Shown here piece after piece: positions 20,305 through 28,161 of a DNA stretch of 64,000 nt. Under the pieces are notes generated by a model, which had not been told where the DNA came from, did no database searches, and worked only from the letters and a program-made list of their open reading frames with translations. Every line of letters begins with the position of its first letter. Positions within the stretch are counted from its first letter, which is position 1. A program made the translations under genes and the position numbers. The DNA is from Aequitasia blattaphilus (GTDB taxonomy: Bacteria; Bacillota; Clostridia; Lachnospirales; Lachnospiraceae). The stretch covers positions 1 through 64,000 of the forward strand of contig NZ_JAMXOD010000001.1 of NCBI RefSeq assembly GCF_024721305.1. The letters are read 5' to 3'.

Positions 20305-20321
20305 ATGAAAAAAGTAAAAGA

Positions 20322-20365
20322 AGCCTCGCAATTCTATCAGCCTTTTGGATTGCGGAGCTTTTTTG
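20322..20365 (+). terminator. Terminator after glgB
   Basis: An imperfect hairpin, AGCCTCGCAATTC with GGATTGCGGAGCTT, is followed by a six-T run ending near 20364. The following bases to 20545 hold no recognisable gene. Confidence 0.65.
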
Positions 20366-20546
20366 TTATACGGGCCATTGGAAGATAGTGAAAAGACGAA
20401 TAGAGGAGTATTTTGTGGAATTCGTTACACTTAAATATTAACTGGGTACAATTTCCTTGAAAGGCAGATTCACATTTGGCATAATACATTATGGGGCTCG
20501 CAGTTTGCGCCTAAAAATAAAAACACCTCGCATTTATTTCAAAGTT

Positions 20547-20555
20547 TGTTATACT
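20547..20555 (+). promoter_or_regulatory. Extended -10 promoter before the integrase fragment
   Basis: TGTTATACT has the TGnTATACT form of an extended -10 element, 33 bases before the start of the integrase remnant. No good -35 box is present. Confidence 0.4.
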
Positions 20556-20587
20556 ACAAAGGATGTAATAAATTAAGGAGGTTAAAA

Positions 20588-20818
20588 ATGGAGGCGTGTA
20601 ATACAGGAATAGAAAATGAACAAACGGCTGTCCAGACATGGGATATGGAAGCGGCTCGTAAGAAGCTCTTTCTCTATTGTGAGAGACTAAGAGAGGAAGA
20701 GAAAAGCAAAGCGACTATTGAAAAATACAAACGAGATGTGAAAAAGTTTTTACTTTTTCTGGAAGGACAGTGCAGTAGTGTGGAAGAGATGAATAAAGCG
20801 ATCCACGGGAAATGGTGA
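20588..20818 (+). pseudogene. N-terminal SAM-like domain of a tyrosine recombinase, truncated
   Basis: A good ribosome site (AAGGAGG at 20575-20582) leads into a protein starting MEACNTGIENEQ. Its segment SKATIEKYKRDVKKFLLFLEG matches the core-binding (Phage_int_SAM) domain of XerC/D-type integrases. After about residue 72 the similarity stops and the frame ends at a TGA. The whole catalytic domain (R-H-R-Y) is absent. It is joined directly to an unrelated fragment, which points to a deletion. Confidence 0.7.
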
Positions 20819-21128
20819 GTTAAAAGGAATCTATATCAGGGCATATATTCCAGAAGTTGCTCAGTATATTTCCCACATGGATTCAAGAGAAGGTGCGTAC
20901 GGTGTGATTCAAGGAAGAGAGCACGTAACTTACTTTATTTCTAGCATGGCACCGGGAGAAGAAAGAGACTTAAGTATTAATTATCGCCTTCATACTTGCC
21001 GGAAGGCAGAAAGTACCATTACCCCGAAATGGTATTATGAGGTGACAGGAGGAGACCAAAGACCATCCACAAACGGTTTTCGAAATCCGGAAGAAGTCAT
21101 AACGATGCATGAAATTCAGGGACTTTAA
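20793..21128 (+). pseudogene. C-terminal fragment of an unidentified, probably extracellular protein
   Basis: An open frame without its own ribosome site encodes KGIYIRAYIPEVAQYISH, then REHVTYFISSMAPGEERDLS and WYYEVTGGDQRPST. The alternating beta pattern and the APGEERDLSI block look like the last immunoglobulin-like (DUF11-type) domain of a surface protein. It overlaps the integrase remnant in a different frame, and its upstream part is lost. It ends 29 bases before the next gene. Confidence 0.4.
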
Positions 21129-21157
21129 TCTCTAAAAAAGAGAAAGGGTGAAGAAGA

Positions 21158-21847
21158 ATGAATGTACTTCTTGTAATCACAATTGTTGTAGGAAGCTGTA
21201 TTTTCTATGGATTCTTTTTGAATCGGGGATATGTGGAGTGGGCCTGTGCAGCTCTGATACTTCCTATGGTGGTTTTGGGCGGGTATTTAGCCATTACCCT
21301 GACTATTAATGGAATGCCTCCTCTTATTATTGCTCTAATCGGAATGGGAATTGTCATCCTTCCTACCCAGATTTTCTATCGGGTACTAAGAAAGACGAAG
21401 AGATTGGTATCACCCTTTCCAATCCAAAAAGAGGCAGACAACAGAGAAGACTTGTGTCAAAAGGCAAGAAGCTTAGGACAAGAGATTGAGATGGAAGAGC
21501 GGAAGCCAAAGTTGAAACAGAAGCCTCAGCCTAAACCTCAGCCTAAACCTCAGCCTAAACCTCAACCCAAAACATCATCCGTTCCAAAACAAGTGAAGAA
21601 ACCAGTGGAGAGAACGATGCCAAAATCTGTGGACGATCCTCACAGTCAGGAGATGTTCCAGAAGGCAAAGCTCCTTTTTGAAAAGGAACAGTACCGTCTT
21701 TCCTATGAGTTGTTAAACTATTGCATGCAGAATATAACGGATTTTCGTACTTTGCAGGAGCTTGTAAGCTATAAGCGCCGTTGCATGGAAGCCCTTGAGA
21801 AACAAGAGAAAAAGCGAGAGTATGAGACTGGGAGAAAAAATTCATGA
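21158..21847 (+). CDS. Hypothetical membrane protein with a Pro-Gln-Pro-Lys repeat
   Basis: 229 residues. Three hydrophobic segments (about 3-20, 26-50 and 53-75) are followed by a cytoplasmic basic region with four PQPK units (about 123-138) and a helical C-terminal domain (about 160-220, SQEMFQKAKLLFEKEQYRLSYELL-like, resembling a single TPR hairpin). No family is recognised. An AAAGGGTG ribosome site precedes ATG 21158. The next gene overlaps its stop by 4 bases (ATGA), so the two are translationally coupled. Confidence 0.65.
   Translation: MNVLLVITIVVGSCIFYGFFLNRGYVEWACAALILPMVVLGGYLAITLTINGMPPLIIALIGMGIVILPTQIFYRVLRKTKRLVSPFPIQKEADNREDLCQKARSLGQEIEMEERKPKLKQKPQPKPQPKPQPKPQPKTSSVPKQVKKPVERTMPKSVDDPHSQEMFQKAKLLFEKEQYRLSYELLNYCMQNITDFRTLQELVSYKRRCMEALEKQEKKREYETGRKNS
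21524..21571 (+). repeat. Four tandem 12-bp repeats (CCTCAGCCTAAA)
   Basis: Three exact units and one with two changes encode (PQPK)4 inside the membrane protein gene. The repeat is in frame, so copy-number change would alter only the linker. Confidence 0.9.
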
Positions 21848-22071
21848 ACAAAAAAATGTTAACAGAAGAACCCTATTATGAAGTCAGCCAGATGTTAGCA
21901 TCTGAGATAAAAGGAGGAAAGAATCCTTATCCGTTCAGACGGTTTTTTTACGGTGTTTACGAACCGCAAATCAAAAAAGTAATTTATCGTGCTCACGACA
22001 TTGAAACGAAAGAGGAAATTTTCTTTTATGAAAAAGAATTTGCCGTTCAATGGTGTGAAAATGGAAAATAA
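21844..22071 (+). CDS. Small hypothetical protein
   Basis: 75 residues, soluble, with mixed charge and several aromatic residues (PYPFRRFFYGVYEPQIKKV). It overlaps the previous gene by ATGA and is clearly its partner, but no family is recognised. It ends 9 bases before the end of the convergent FtsZ-like gene, with no obvious terminator between them. Confidence 0.6.
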   Translation: MNKKMLTEEPYYEVSQMLASEIKGGKNPYPFRRFFYGVYEPQIKKVIYRAHDIETKEEIFFYEKEFAVQWCENGK

Positions 22072-22080
22072 AAAATATTC

Positions 22081-23769
22081 CTACAAACCCATCAGTCTTT
22101 GCCGTATGACATCAAAGCTGAATTCACCTGCGTTAAGTGCCCTGGCGTTATCCGGCTCATTCACGATTTCCATTATAAGGTTGAGTTCCTCTTGTAACGC
22201 ACTATTAGAAAGATTAAACACATCCTTGGTTAATGGATTGGCTTCGGAAATAATTCCAGCTACTTCTCGCACGTTATTATATATCCGCTCACTGTACAGA
22301 GGCCTAGTCCTCTGGTCAGTGAGTTTTTCGCATATCACTTTAAAAAGATAGTCATTGGAAAACGAGATTACACCGTCACACACTTCAACCAGCCGCTCAA
22401 TACCTGCTTCGGCTTTTGCTATACGTTCTTCTCCTTCAAAATCGAAAGGCGTAATTGCCATAGATATCACTAAGCAACCCATTTCTTTGGCAATCGTAGC
22501 AATTTGGGGCGCAATGCTTGTAGCAGTAGTCCCGCCAACACCAGCCACAAGGATAAGCAGATTAGCATTACGCAAGGCCGCTAAAATACTCTCCATATTC
22601 TGATTTACAGCAAACATGCCTAGGTCTATATCAGATGACTGCTCATAGAACCCCTCTAATTTCAACAAAACTTTATTGGTGCAGAGATTTTCTTTAAGTA
22701 TAAGTTCGTCGGTATCCATGACGATAAAATCTATTCCTTTGTATATGCCAGTGTTCTGACAATTTGTCGATAGATCATATACAATGTTTGTACCGGCGCC
22801 GCCAACGCCGATGATCTTTGTTTTCTGGATCATTGGATTCAAATTTTCGTTTTCATCCCAAAATCCATCTAAGTTAATCCACATAGCGGGTCGAATATTT
22901 GGTACACCAAACCACATCCAAGGCATAGTATCCTCCAACGCCTTTTCACCATGACCATTGATGGCACCGTCCTCATCAACGTGACATGGTCCATAAAGGC
23001 CTGTCGTGCGAAGCCACCATTCATCCGAACTGCGACGATCCAAATCATTTTTAAAATACTTTTGAGCCTCATCAGCAGAGAGTAAGAATACTTTATCGCA
23101 AGTATCATTACCCTCGTTTGTGCCTAACCAATCATTTATGTTTTTATTAGTGACTTCCAACACTCTAGAACGAACAGCCGCCGGAAGGATACGATAAAAG
23201 TCATCATTAAGCCACGCCCGGAGGCTACAGTTTTCCCAGGTTTCGTGATACGTTCCATTGTCATCATATCTGTGATAATGCATAAACACGATGTTATTGG
23301 TGGTTACGGCAAGTACACGATTTTGAGTTTCATCAAAGTCTAAAATCCGCCAGTTCCATTCACCATTGACGGCATCTTGTATGGCTTTTAAAGACAGTAG
23401 ATTCAGTTCATATTCATTCAGCAAATCATTTATTCTGCGTTTGGAAGTGTTCATATGGATAAAAATCGTCTTTAGATGGTCAATTGCTTCCCACAGTTCT
23501 GCAATGCTTCGTCCTCTAGGCTCATGATCAGGATTATATATTTCCATCATGCTGGGTTTTAGGTAGTCAGGTGCTTCTTTATCAAACAGAGTTAAGTTCA
23601 AACTTCGAATTGCATCAGTAAGATCCACAATACGAAGATCAAGTTGACCAATCTGACGCTTCAAAGTCTGGGCTATATCATTGGGGGGGTTATCATCCAG
23701 AAACTCCTTGACCGTTTTCATGACAATGCCTTGCCATGATTCTGAGATATGTAGACTTAAGTCATCCAT
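22081..23769 (-). CDS. DUF6273 - FtsZ/tubulin-like GTPase fusion protein
   Basis: 562 residues in three parts. Residues 1-135 are helical, probably coiled coil. About 138-300 is a DUF6273 domain (WNWRILDFDE, CSLRAWLNDDFY, DKVFLLSADEAQKYF, WWLRTTG, IRPAMWINL). About 316-562 is an FtsZ/tubulin-like domain: KIIGVGGAGTNIV (318-330), DFIVMDTDE (347-355), a degenerate tubulin signature AGVGGTTATSIAP (409-421), PFDFEGEERIAKAEAGIERL (441-460) and SNDYLFKV (471-478). It ends just after a T7-loop-like AGEFSFDVI (547-555), so the second FtsZ domain is missing. AGGAGG overlapping the upstream stop sets ATG 23769. It is the last gene of a three-gene operon. No role in ordinary division is implied; its function is unknown. 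Confidence 0.7.
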   Translation of the reverse strand: MDDLSLHISESWQGIVMKTVKEFLDDNPPNDIAQTLKRQIGQLDLRIVDLTDAIRSLNLTLFDKEAPDYLKPSMMEIYNPDHEPRGRSIAELWEAIDHLKTIFIHMNTSKRRINDLLNEYELNLLSLKAIQDAVNGEWNWRILDFDETQNRVLAVTTNNIVFMHYHRYDDNGTYHETWENCSLRAWLNDDFYRILPAAVRSRVLEVTNKNINDWLGTNEGNDTCDKVFLLSADEAQKYFKNDLDRRSSDEWWLRTTGLYGPCHVDEDGAINGHGEKALEDTMPWMWFGVPNIRPAMWINLDGFWDENENLNPMIQKTKIIGVGGAGTNIVYDLSTNCQNTGIYKGIDFIVMDTDELILKENLCTNKVLLKLEGFYEQSSDIDLGMFAVNQNMESILAALRNANLLILVAGVGGTTATSIAPQIATIAKEMGCLVISMAITPFDFEGEERIAKAEAGIERLVEVCDGVISFSNDYLFKVICEKLTDQRTRPLYSERIYNNVREVAGIISEANPLTKDVFNLSNSALQEELNLIMEIVNEPDNARALNAGEFSFDVIRQRLMGL

Positions 23770-23781
23770 AGCATGACCTCC

Positions 23782-24951
23782 TTATACGTTTATATGATGA
23801 TTATCTGCCGCCAGAATAGTTATATTTTGTTGCATCTGCTCCCAATCGCGTGAGCAGGCACCAACTTTCGAGGCAGGAACACTTAGTAAAAATGCGCGAA
23901 GCCGAGGCAGGGACTTGCGTATACATCTTCCAGCAACAACCAAAACAGGAGGCGTTTCAAGAAACTTGGTCCAGCTCAAATGGTTGTACTCCTGGGTGGC
24001 GACAATTATTTGCTTCTCTTGCTCGAACACGTTGCTCCACGCGGATATTGCCATCCGAATGAAAGTCTCATCACCATCTTTCAAAAAATCCTGCATGTCT
24101 GACCCTGTGCTAAAACAAGAGTAAAGCACCAACGCATCTCTGAAGTGGGCGCATTCCTCCTCGCTGAAATCCTCATAAAGCCTGTAGCGCCAGATTGCTT
24201 TGACGACGTTGTAGAGGGTGGAAGCAAACTCAGCTTGGCCGTATAAATCATTCCCCCAAAGATCATGTCTTATGGCTGTAAGCCCATTTATGCAGTTAAA
24301 TCGGATTACGGGTAGGCTGAGCTTGAAGGATGTCCCGCACTCCTTGCTGTAAAATGGAAGTCGGGGATTGTCATTTTCGGATTCGAGCATATAGTGGCAA
24401 AACAGCGAGGCGATGGATGCGTCTGCTGGTGTGCTTCTTAACTGAAAGCAGTGGGCAAAAACAAGATTCCATTGATTAATGTGTTTCGGGTCTTTGAAGT
24501 GCTTATTCAAATGATTTGCCAGAAAGTTCAGATGCTGTGCACCTTTCAGCCTTTCAACAAGCATCCAGTCTCCACGTTTCTCATCAAAGCTTCCGTATCT
24601 TCGCTTGTGTTCACGGGAAACATAATGGGCAATTTCGCTTAGATAAGTGGAAAACGATGATGTAAAGCGACACATCTCTCCGTCCTGTTGAAAAGAAGCA
24701 GACCATGCACACAGTGCGGTGTCCATTAACTCGCAAATAGCATCGTTTTCCGCAAAATTCTCCAGCTGTACAAACTTGGCGAATAATATCCGTTTGCTGT
24801 CTAGACCGTTTTTTGTAATATATTTGCGAATTTCATCTGGTGAATCAGGTCGTTGCACGAAGGCGTAAGCGTATTGCGCAACGCTTATATCGGTAAAAAA
24901 ACGTTCTACGATTTCTTGTGTGGACAGCTGATTGATATTTAAAGTGTTCAT
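23782..24951 (-). CDS. Unknown 389-residue protein between XRE and FtsZ-like genes
   Basis: A soluble, mostly helical protein with no signal peptide or membrane segment and no family I recognise. It is Cys- and His-rich in places (REHKRRYGS, FAHCFQLRS, FCHYMLESE). Its start overlaps the XRE gene by 4 bases (ATGA), and its stop lies within the ribosome site of the FtsZ-like gene, so the three are co-translated. The base composition is high for this window (33 G+C of 60 at 24181-24240, against 20 of 60 at 21841-21900), which suggests recent transfer. Confidence 0.6.
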   Translation of the reverse strand: MNTLNINQLSTQEIVERFFTDISVAQYAYAFVQRPDSPDEIRKYITKNGLDSKRILFAKFVQLENFAENDAICELMDTALCAWSASFQQDGEMCRFTSSFSTYLSEIAHYVSREHKRRYGSFDEKRGDWMLVERLKGAQHLNFLANHLNKHFKDPKHINQWNLVFAHCFQLRSTPADASIASLFCHYMLESENDNPRLPFYSKECGTSFKLSLPVIRFNCINGLTAIRHDLWGNDLYGQAEFASTLYNVVKAIWRYRLYEDFSEEECAHFRDALVLYSCFSTGSDMQDFLKDGDETFIRMAISAWSNVFEQEKQIIVATQEYNHLSWTKFLETPPVLVVAGRCIRKSLPRLRAFLLSVPASKVGACSRDWEQMQQNITILAADNHHINV

Positions 24952-25229
24952 TTTGTATTCTCCTCCTCACCAATTGATTTTTTAACTAACATATCAACAG
25001 AATATCCTGCAAAAAAATCACTATAATCGCATTTGAAGATATCAGTCAGTGCTAATAATTCGGTAAAATTGACATTATATCGACCCAATTCGATTTGTGA
25101 ATATTGGCTTCTAGTCATGTTTATTCCATACAATTGAAATTTAATTACAACGTCTTCCTGTGTTAGATTATTCTTGTATCTAAGTTTTTTAAAGTTTTCC
25201 CCAAAATTTAAATCTTGCTTAACTTTCAA
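24948..25229 (-). CDS. XRE-family helix-turn-helix regulator
   Basis: 93 residues, almost entirely one Cro/CI-type HTH. NFKKLRYKNNLTQEDVV is the first helix pair, NMTRSQYSQIELGRYNV the recognition and following helix, and TDIFKCDYSDFFAG the last helix. Start TTG 25229 is supported by AGGAGGA within 6 bases; the next ATG is inside the HTH. It is the first gene of the operon with the unknown protein and FtsZ-like fusion, and probably represses that operon. The AT-rich region upstream (25241-25330) must contain its promoter, which I could not place with confidence. Confidence 0.85.
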   Translation of the reverse strand: MKVKQDLNFGENFKKLRYKNNLTQEDVVIKFQLYGINMTRSQYSQIELGRYNVNFTELLALTDIFKCDYSDFFAGYSVDMLVKKSIGEEENTK

Positions 25230-25437
25230 TTCTTCCTCCTTATTGAAAACATATTAGTTATTATAAACTCTTGATATTCACTTTTGTGCTATGTATTCAT
25301 TTCACAAACAAATTGTTAATATTAATTTACTACTATTATTCAAAAATATCAAAAGACGAATCGGCAATTGAACATGAGTGAGGAAGACGGATTACGAGAT
25401 AACTTTAACTTTGAGAGTATTAAAATGTATTAGTAGA

Positions 25438-25475
25438 GAAAAACTCCCCAGTGTATCAATACCTAGGGAGTTTTC
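25438..25475 (-). terminator. Terminator of the codB-codA unit
   Basis: GAAAAACTCCC (25438-25448) and GGGAGTTTTC (25466-25475) form a hairpin. Read on the minus strand it ends in GGGAGTTTTTCTC, 13 bases after the codA stop. Confidence 0.75.
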
Positions 25476-25487
25476 ATTTATCATATC

Positions 25488-26723
25488 TTATATATACAAT
25501 TGTTTAACAGCCGGGATTGTTTCGGAAATCAATCGACCAGTGCGGTATGATGCAAGGACAGCACCCTTTTGGTTCAGAGTCTGATAGAAGTCTGAGCCAT
25601 CTAAGACAATCAGATTAGCTGGTCTTCCCACAGCAATGCCATAATTTTCGCCTAAGTGCAAAGTCTTTGCAGCATTGGTGGTCACAAGCTTGTAGCTATC
25701 AAGGATTTCTTGATACCCCATCATTTGGCATACGTGTAGTCCCATAAAAACCACATCCATCATATTGCCGGTTCCGAGAGGATACCAAGGATCAAAGATA
25801 TCATCATGTCCCATTGAAACATTACAGTTGTTCGCTAATAATTCCTTGACGCGGGTTACACCACGGCGTCTTGGATAGGTATCCGTGCGTCCCTGTAGAT
25901 GTGTATTTACCAGTGGGTTACATACAAAGTTAATTTCACTCATGGTGAGCAAACGAAATAACTTCAGTGTATAAGCGTTATTATAGGAATGCATTGCAGT
26001 GGTATGACTTGCAGTGACCCTATCTTTCATTCCAGACTCTAATGCTCGAGTCGCTAAGGTTTCCAGGCCGCGAGAGGCTTCGTCATCAATTTCATCACAA
26101 TGAACATCAACAAGAACATCATATTTTTCAGCAAGTTTCATTGCCATATTTAAAGATTCTACACTGTATTCCCGGGTAAACTCATAATGAGGAATTGCAC
26201 CCACGGCATCAGCTCCCATACGAAGAGATTCTTCAAGGAGTTTGGCGCCATTGGGATAGGAAAGAATACCTTCCTGAGGAAACGCTACAATTTGTATGGT
26301 GACATGATCTTTAAATTCTTCCCGAAGCTCAATGAGGGCTTCCATTGCGGTTAACTTGGGGTCGGTGGTGTCAACATGAGTGCGGACAAATTGTACACCG
26401 TTTGCAACCTGCATCTTAATAGCACGGCGAACACGTTCTTTTACATCTTCTTTGGTCAGAGATTCCTTGCGCTTGGACCAACATTCGATTCCTTCAAAAA
26501 GTGTACCGCTTTCATTCCAACAAGGTTGCCCAGCAGTTAAGCAAGTATCCAGATGGACGTGAGATTCGATAAAAGGAGGAAGGGCTAATTTACCGAAATA
26601 ATCCTTTACCTCCTCCCCGTCTTTTGCTGTTAGACTGGGAGCAATTTCCTTGAAAAGTCCATCTTCGATTCGAACATCACTTGTTTCTTTATTATTTTCA
26701 ATATGCAATCCTTTTAGTAACAT
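25488..26723 (-). CDS. codA: Cytosine deaminase
   Basis: Hydrolyses cytosine to uracil and ammonia in pyrimidine salvage. The 411-residue amidohydrolase-fold protein has the metal ligands in order: HVHLDT near residue 58, DVHCDE (His about 208, the usual catalytic Glu two residues later), SHTTAMHS and MGHDDI (the Asp ligand). Substrate-loop features such as TNAAKTLHLG are also those of CodA. Its AGGAG ribosome site lies before ATG 26723. It is 34 bases downstream of codB on the same strand, giving an uptake-plus-deamination unit. The order permease then deaminase is the usual one. Confidence 0.9.
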   Translation of the reverse strand: MLLKGLHIENNKETSDVRIEDGLFKEIAPSLTAKDGEEVKDYFGKLALPPFIESHVHLDTCLTAGQPCWNESGTLFEGIECWSKRKESLTKEDVKERVRRAIKMQVANGVQFVRTHVDTTDPKLTAMEALIELREEFKDHVTIQIVAFPQEGILSYPNGAKLLEESLRMGADAVGAIPHYEFTREYSVESLNMAMKLAEKYDVLVDVHCDEIDDEASRGLETLATRALESGMKDRVTASHTTAMHSYNNAYTLKLFRLLTMSEINFVCNPLVNTHLQGRTDTYPRRRGVTRVKELLANNCNVSMGHDDIFDPWYPLGTGNMMDVVFMGLHVCQMMGYQEILDSYKLVTTNAAKTLHLGENYGIAVGRPANLIVLDGSDFYQTLNQKGAVLASYRTGRLISETIPAVKQLYI

Positions 26724-26757
26724 ATTAACTCCTATCTGTCTGCTATTAGCAGGCGTA

Positions 26758-28020
26758 TTAATTCGATTCCCCGGGCATTTCCCAAGCGCTGCCTGGAATC
26801 TGTTCTTTCCTTCTGTCTAGTAAGGCGCCGATAAAGTAAGATATTGCTGCAATGACCATTGCATTGATGGATGAAATACCGATTGGAATAAAATTCGCAC
26901 CAATGGCACCAGCAATTACACCAAGTATGGAAAAAATGCGGAAATCCTTTTGAGGTTCTTCGGATTCATAGTCTTTTTTCCGACAAAAGTAATCAAGAAT
27001 CAGGATGATTCCGACTGGAGGAAGAGTCGTATTGAGAAGATTTAACCAACCTACAAAATTGTCATAGAGCCAAAGGGCAGCAACTGTTCCCAGTATTCCT
27101 CCAACCAAAGTGGTGATTTTCTTGGACTGACTTGTGATATTTGAAAGCCCGAGACCAGCAGAATATAATGCATTATCGTTGGTGGTCCAGATGTTAGCAC
27201 CAAGTACTAAAATAGCAGGTATGGTAAGTCCTTGTGCAATCATTACGTAAAAGATATCTTCACTATTTGTATAGGCACCGCCAATTGCTCCAAAAAGGAA
27301 CATTAAGCAGTTACCTGCAAAAAATGCGGTTACGGTAGTTGTAACAGCAATCCCCTTGCTTTTTGCAAAGCGGACAAAGTTTGGAGTGGTAGTTCCGCCA
27401 CTGACAAAGGATCCAACAACAAGACCAACAGCAGTTAACATTGGCATCTGATCCGTGCCGAACATGCTTGATAAACCGCCAGATTGTGTAATAGCCATAT
27501 ACATAGAAATGATTCCGAGAATGGAGATTAACGGAACCGAAATACTACTTACAATTGTTAAGGCATCAATGCCAAACCAAGCCGATACAGTCATCAAAAC
27601 ACCGGCGATTACAACAAAGATGATTGGTGAAATCCCAAAAAGTTCGCTTAATGGATAGGCAAGCATTGCGACACCGACACCAAACCATCCAACTTGAGTT
27701 AAGGCAATCATTGCAGAGGGTAGATAAGAGCCTTTTTTCCCAAAAGAATAGTGAGCCAGTAAATCCATACTAAGTCCGGTGGAACTGCCCACATAAGCTA
27801 ATAATCCTGTATATGCTCCTAAAATAACACTCCCAATTAAAATAGCTGTTAAAAAACCTGAAAATGATAAAGAATTTCCAAGTCTTGCACCAACGCTCAT
27901 GCTGGCAGAAAAAAAGGTGAAACCAAGCATAATCACAAAGAGAGATAAAAATCCTTTGCGCTTGCTCAGAGGCACCTGAGATGATTCGAAATCTTTGCTT
28001 TCTTTGGTCTGTTGAACCAT
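26758..28020 (-). CDS. codB: Cytosine/purine permease (NCS1 family)
   Basis: A 421-residue, roughly 12-span transporter of the nucleobase:cation symporter 1 family. The N-terminal LGFTFFSASMSVGARLG and the segments GLSMDLLAHYSFGKKGSYLPS and WTTNDNALYSAGLGLSNI are characteristic (the last is the substrate-site region of CodB). ATG 28020 is chosen because AGGAGG precedes it closely; the frame extends to 28134 without another ribosome site. It takes up cytosine for the deaminase encoded next. No purine riboswitch structure is seen upstream. Confidence 0.88.
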   Translation of the reverse strand: MVQQTKESKDFESSQVPLSKRKGFLSLFVIMLGFTFFSASMSVGARLGNSLSFSGFLTAILIGSVILGAYTGLLAYVGSSTGLSMDLLAHYSFGKKGSYLPSAMIALTQVGWFGVGVAMLAYPLSELFGISPIIFVVIAGVLMTVSAWFGIDALTIVSSISVPLISILGIISMYMAITQSGGLSSMFGTDQMPMLTAVGLVVGSFVSGGTTTPNFVRFAKSKGIAVTTTVTAFFAGNCLMFLFGAIGGAYTNSEDIFYVMIAQGLTIPAILVLGANIWTTNDNALYSAGLGLSNITSQSKKITTLVGGILGTVAALWLYDNFVGWLNLLNTTLPPVGIILILDYFCRKKDYESEEPQKDFRIFSILGVIAGAIGANFIPIGISSINAMVIAAISYFIGALLDRRKEQIPGSAWEMPGESN

Positions 28021-28053
28021 GATATTTCCTCCTAAGTTAAAATTATTAGTAAG

Positions 28054-28059
28054 AGTATA
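28054..28059 (-). promoter_or_regulatory. Extended -10 promoter of codB
   Basis: On the minus strand the sequence reads ATGGTATACT, a TGn-extended TATACT box about 35 bases before the codB start. The -35 is weak. Confidence 0.4.
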
Positions 28060-28105
28060 CCATAAATGAATATAGCAGGAAAGAAAAAATCCAGACATCG
28101 TAGAT

Positions 28106-28140
28106 AAACCCCTGCTAACCATAAGGATTAGCAAGGGTTT
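28106..28140 (-). terminator. Terminator of the V-type ATPase operon
   Basis: AAACCCCTGCTAA (28106-28118) pairs with TTAGCAAGGGTTT (28128-28140) apart from one mismatch. It lies about 20 bases after the subunit D stop and before the codB promoter. The T-run on the minus strand is short. Confidence 0.65.
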
Positions 28141-28161
28141 GCAATTTTCTAAATATAAAAA

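Follow-up and report, generated by a model that had tools for sequence, protein, structure and literature searches.

The bacterium Aequitasia blattaphilus carries a three-gene unit whose last product joins a DUF6273 domain to the GTPase half of FtsZ, and this observation of the initial annotation was confirmed. In nearly all cases FtsZ belongs to the core proteins and forms filaments; in this unit one half of it, with altered or missing catalytic parts, is attached to a putative binding domain on a variable segment of the genome. The protein is real, unusual and found once, and the present evidence points to known building blocks and to no new kind of system. We tentatively read the operon as an accessory sensor module of an immune or conflict type, with a probability of roughly 0.3. 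The features lie in the window, by which we mean the whole stretch of 64,000 nucleotides that was analysed:

20305..28161, no strand: segment of 7,857 bp, lying between the glgB-like gene and the V-type ATPase subunit D gene (synteny, Pfam)
20546..20818, plus strand: N-terminal remnant of an integrase (Phage_int_SAM_1, 22.1 bits, just below the cut-off of 22.3)
24948..25229, minus strand: first gene of the operon, XRE/Cro-type HTH regulator of 93 aa (Pfam, PHROGs)
23782..24951, minus strand: orphan protein of 389 aa without a family match, partner of the fusion
22081..23769, minus strand: fusion of 562 aa with a helical N-terminus, DUF6273, an FtsZ GTPase domain and a helical end
aa 1-134 of the fusion: helical N-terminus (low-confidence model)
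22873..23274, minus strand: DUF6273 domain, aa 166-299 (Pfam PF19789, 74.6 bits, cut-off 23.5)
22333..22818, minus strand: FtsZ/tubulin GTPase domain, Pfam match aa 318-479, domain about aa 312-510 (PF00091, 91.7 bits)
22195..22242, minus strand: region of the synergy loop (T7), degenerate, aa 510-525 (aligned to 30 canonical FtsZ rows)

The frames of 93, 389 and 562 codons are all intact, their starts overlap and their ribosome sites are good, and the codon usage of the operon is approximately that of the host. The first product scored 36.2 bits against HTH_19 and 27.4 bits against HTH_3 (Pfam) and also matched PHROG repressors, and in PADLOC-DB 2.0.0 it gave generic HTH matches only. In the region of its gene, 11 promoter-like sites were counted where 10.7 are expected by chance, and the inverted repeats there, listed without a chance control, were short ones of which none was judged an operator. 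The 389-aa protein had no match in Pfam, PADLOC or PHROGs and nothing above cut-off in NCBIfam, and its single-sequence AF2 model was mostly helical and, with a pLDDT of 43, unusable. The fusion returned one partial match to PDC-S32 (16.5 bits) in PADLOC-DB 2.0.0 and no known anti-phage system. NACHT/STAND, TIR and kinase domains (Pfam) were absent from all three proteins, and that the operon holds no recognised effector speaks against the sensor module.

The segment is variable, as had been proposed. Among 15 relatives searched for synteny, two are of the same genus (G077 and G1025), and in both the flanking genes abut: the gap between the glgB-like and ATP-synthase subunit D genes is 41 bp (L042) and 22 bp (L041), respectively, compared to 7,857 bp in the window. 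The same two genes do not adjoin each other at the six loci that were read from other genera; the argument for an insertion, as opposed to a loss, accordingly depends on two genomes. Both codon usage and base composition are close to those of the host, and the earlier description of the operon as GC-shifted should therefore carry no weight. Apart from the operon and the integrase remnant, the segment contains ORFs of 83, 229 and 75 aa and a pair of genes for an amidohydrolase and a cytosine/purine-type permease (window 25488-28134; Pfam). Its position in an otherwise closed gene junction is consistent with the sensor module; on the other hand, the intact neighbours look metabolic, and PADLOC found nothing in the six other ORFs of the segment.

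This pair would also fit a non-conflict regulatory or stress module, in which the DUF6273 and FtsZ domains would detect a nucleotide or metabolite on behalf of the XRE regulator. The XRE protein is encoded first, and an XRE-DUF6273 fusion is encoded on a viral contig (L100:3752-4579), but such a module leaves the orphan protein and the FtsZ part unexplained and seems rather improbable. That the fusion is evolutionary debris, i.e. a functionless chance product on a decaying segment, we regard as very unlikely. The adjoining integrase is a remnant, and all searches made returned the fusion from a single genome; against this stand the three intact frames with their overlapping starts and ribosome sites, a codon usage near that of the host and the retention of core motifs.

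An assembly error as the origin of the fusion was rejected, because the frame is continuous, 18 residues separate the two Pfam matches and the contig is 288 kb long. Both scores exceed their cut-offs and place the protein, within the same frame, in DUF6273 and, by its GTPase domain, in the FtsZ/tubulin superfamily, in agreement with the initial annotation. The structure comparison that it had proposed for the C-terminal part bore out the fold: among solved structures, the best matches of the modelled GTPase domain were FtsZ. The DUF6273 part, in which a C-type-lectin fold was looked for, was modelled with low confidence (block means 30-57). Against the cell-division FtsZ equivalog TIGR00065 (NCBIfam), the fusion scored 117.7 bits, far below the cut-off of 295.2. 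The second domain of FtsZ is indeed missing: FtsZ_C (PF12327) was absent at E ≤ 1, and the C-terminal end falls where FtsZ_C would start, with about 43 residues, predicted as helices, remaining after T7. PF13809 (Tubulin_2/FtsZl1), found at loci L037 and L038, and the TubZ C-terminal domain, found at L035 and L036, were absent from the fusion as well, and this domain content ruled out membership of TubZ or FtsZl1.

The residue tally compares the fusion with 30 canonical FtsZs of the order, among them that of the genome itself; eight of these rows are cut before T1. Conservation of at least 95% was seen in 106 columns, of which 83 have a counterpart in the fusion up to residue 525, and at 38 of these 83 the fusion is identical. 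The loop names in part, and the tubulin signature GGGTG(S/T)G, follow PMC2875224. T1, T5 and T6 are largely kept, and retained residues include most of the GVGG-G-N loop, the TD pair, PF-FEG and the SND asparagine. T3 is altered from GLGAG to FYEQS. T4 reads GGTTATS instead of the signature, a degeneration that had been recognised before and in which three glycines, each G in 30 of 30 canonical rows, are replaced. T7 reads T-K-D-V-F-N compared to the catalytic N-x-D-x-x-D of the canonical rows, with N changed to T and the second D to N. Because residues of T3, T4 and T7 are changed and the C-terminal domain is missing, we predict from the sequence that the domain hydrolyses weakly or not at all and forms no ordinary filament. 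With cell-division FtsZ (TIGR00065; PF00091 plus PF12327) the fusion thus shares the GTPase fold and T1, T5 and T6, but not FtsZ_C, the other three loops or the equivalog score, and it is joined to DUF6273. The retained guanine-side motifs and the 38 identical positions favour the sensor module, whereas the T3 and T4 changes may abolish nucleotide binding and would then count against it.

The genome carries a separate canonical ftsZ of its own, on contig C23. The FtsZ part of the fusion shows 32-35% identity to nine FtsZs of the order, and the own FtsZ had the lowest score of eight equally trimmed rows (67.7 vs 78.9-86.8 bits). A recent duplication of the host ftsZ was rejected, as the own FtsZ is no nearer than FtsZs of other families; the best matches listed for the whole fusion, to 6.7e-29, belong to other families of the order. 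In a tree, the domain tentatively falls on the FtsZ side of the split from TubZ, on a saturated branch (length 10).

These values bear on the possibility that the fusion is a division-arrest effector, whose FtsZ half would bind host FtsZ at its synergy-loop face and, as a poison, cap polymerisation once XRE repression is lifted or the DUF6273 ligand is bound. Having an altered T7 and no C-terminal domain, the GTPase domain might retain a single face for pairing with host FtsZ, which is geometrically reasonable. However, T3, which is part of the FtsZ pairing face, is lost, and a closer resemblance to host FtsZ would be expected of a poison; we hold this explanation to be unlikely. The FtsZ-blocking toxin CbtA of cryptic prophages, which according to the accessible part of PMC5624674 binds the H6/H7 loop, is a precedent.

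Alternatively, the FtsZ half could be a bait that captures phage FtsZ inhibitors, upon which DUF6273 or the partner protein would signal in the style of an integrated decoy. As described in the available text of PMC13423816, FtsZ bound by Gp0.4 of phage T7 activates the defence protein CapRel-Ebc, and sensing through FtsZ therefore exists. The link between FtsZ and phage sensing would be common to both, but CapRel-Ebc uses the synergy-loop/C-terminal side of host FtsZ and itself has no FtsZ domain. The synergy-loop face and C-terminal domain to which Gp0.4, SulA and MciZ bind (same part of PMC13423816) are altered or absent in the fusion, and its H6/H7 loop, the CbtA target in the part of PMC5624674 cited above, differs from the canonical one, which makes a bait quite unlikely.

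The 60 family genomes searched for DUF6273 contain 67 matches, spread over 29 genomes and including the fusion. We scanned 18 other DUF6273 proteins, mostly chosen for their length or for showing no obvious signal peptide: six were of the NACHT/STAND type, three TIR-TPR proteins, one a protein kinase and one an acyltransferase, and seven had nothing else above cut-off; the signalling share is inflated, because the set was selected and some members were fetched as signalling-like by their first piece. All six NACHT/STAND-type proteins carry pentapeptide repeats, and their NTPase domain exceeds the Pfam cut-off in five and lies below it in L093:4550-8650. Four large pentapeptide-repeat proteins with a C-terminal DUF6273 are encoded within 18 kb at L093:689-19121 (G007:C32), with NACHT above cut-off in three, and form a small NLR-like cluster. 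The 1588-aa protein of L096:675-5438 has an LmuA-like N-terminus (Lamassu; 54.7 bits), a P-loop NTPase, pentapeptide repeats and DUF6273, and TIR-TPR-DUF6273 proteins are found at L094:841-7453 (two adjacent) and L095:4067-6520. In 10 of 10 signalling-type proteins DUF6273 is C-terminal to the signalling domain (about 215 residues follow in L094:841-4197), whereas in the fusion it is N-terminal to the FtsZ domain, and this reversed order argues against the sensor module. DUF6273 is also not specific to immunity: by a crude measure, a hydrophobic stretch falls within the first 60 residues at 11 of 30 loci.

In the accessible parts of two studies, DUF6273 has a C-lectin fold in predicted models (PMC10743442) and is a target of DGRs in phages (PMC10743442, PMC11792537). 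The genome itself carries a DGR on contig C2 (L109 = C2:75500-82500), aimed at a secreted-looking DUF6273 protein of 731 aa (C2:76978-79170), which is followed by a 135-aa frame and then a 383-aa reverse transcriptase frame. The end of the target (C2:79035-79155) matches the template (C2:79834-79951) at 81%, and 17 of the 20 substitutions affect template adenines; the domain would therefore serve variable binding here too. The fusion was rejected as a live DGR target: a search of the own-genome DNA for a template repeat of its gene returned the gene itself plus matches of at most 30 bases at E 0.4 or worse. Template and target of the C2 DGR had no match beyond 20 bases in the DUF6273 DNA of the fusion, and the three RVT_1 matches in the genome are confined to contigs C10 and C2, whereas the window belongs to contig C1. 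That the fusion is not a target of this DGR weakens the sensor module.

Because DUF6273 occurs on NLR-like, TIR and kinase proteins and is exploited by DGRs, its most likely role is that of a binding sensor, in which case the switch would be the putative nucleotide-binding domain derived from FtsZ. Whereas genes, domains, residue changes, the variable segment and the rarity were observed, the working of the sensor module is inferred throughout: the XRE protein would repress the operon, and the DUF6273 domain with its putative lectin fold, by its role elsewhere, would bind the trigger. The FtsZ-derived domain may still hold guanine nucleotide, by prediction without efficient hydrolysis or filament building, and would serve for dimerisation or as a switch gated by the nucleotide, in place of the NACHT, TIR or kinase domain of other DUF6273 proteins (L093-L097, L070). 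The helical N-terminus and the 389-aa partner would relay the output. The Lamassu-like start of L096 and the viral XRE-DUF6273 fusion are in line with this reading. Further support comes from proposals in the literature, as far as the available parts of the papers go: C-lectin domains on STAND proteins, diversified by DGRs, are proposed as antigen sensors (PMC10907252), and for conflict systems it is suggested that tubulins are analogous to STAND NTPases in their assembly, with rare FtsZ/tubulin effectors noted (PMC7159879). The fusion would likewise combine a putative C-lectin-type domain with an NTPase-type one, but has neither a STAND domain nor a template repeat in its own genome. The defence or conflict role put forward initially draws its support only from analogy with the NACHT, TIR and kinase proteins of the family, and PADLOC recognised no system. 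A narrower version is doubtful: in it, an immune-type receptor would have acquired an FtsZ GTPase domain that no longer catalyses and serves as nucleotide switch or as integrated decoy for phage proteins directed at cell division, beside a second, lectin-fold sensor and with the 389-aa protein as output. If a sensor, the fusion would be a bacterial counterpart of receptors carrying a copy of an attacked host protein, and the NLR-like, TIR and kinase proteins together with the DGR target of the same genome give DUF6273 a testable role.

Like the structure of the protein and the variability of its segment, the claimed rarity held up, as neither fusion nor orphan was met elsewhere in searches of family, order, class and phylum genomes. 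The orphan had matches in 0 of 298 other family genomes (299 sampled from 298 genera, own included) and none in plasmid or phage collections. Among 390 other class genomes, which partly overlap the family set, two matches had E < 0.01; both were rejected, as the first corresponds to a short part of a PPIC-type isomerase protein and the second was not reproduced. The N-terminal 163 aa of the fusion matched only itself among 398 phylum genomes (0 of 397 others). When 392 order genomes were searched with the whole fusion, all matches listed except its own covered the FtsZ part only, and no second DUF6273-FtsZ fusion was seen among them. Against plasmid and phage sequences (87 and 17 records), no place covered 80% of the query, and pattern scans of genome and viral contigs for orphan and fusion, in which single-protein patterns reach close relatives only, found no relative. 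This lack of a relative in which co-occurrence or selection could be followed counts against the sensor module.

Tubulin domains were scanned in 140 family genomes, five of which had no match. Low-scoring or second copies were the fusion, L035-L039 and further canonical-type ones in G010, G039 and G082; unlike the fusion, the L035-L039 tubulins each keep their own C-terminal domain or family. In 146 order genomes, overlapping with these 140, the fusion was the sole match below 100 bits in a frame of more than 400 aa among the matches listed. A 545-aa open frame in G415 was rejected as an ordinary FtsZ with FtsZ_C plus an upstream extension. Membrane remodelling, the other function suggested initially, was not borne out, since the tubulins proposed for it (FtsZl1, Tubulin_2) are a different family, met at L037 and L038. 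Such systems, in the parts available of PMC2875224 and, for GAP1-N2 systems, PMC7159879, also combine a non-division tubulin with a multigene locus, but the fusion lacks PF13809 and a vWA or GTPase partner and has a different C-terminus. The Tubulin_2 (FtsZl1-like) proteins of L037 and L038 are about 1150 aa long and have, by eye, vWA-like secreted and large membrane-like proteins as neighbours. L035:6419-7498 and L036:6288-7355 encode TubZ-like proteins, each after a gene of about 95 aa, on stretches that look plasmid-like by eye. L039:3055-4266 encodes an FtsZ paralogue with FtsZ_C, near a gene that by eye is SPFH-like.
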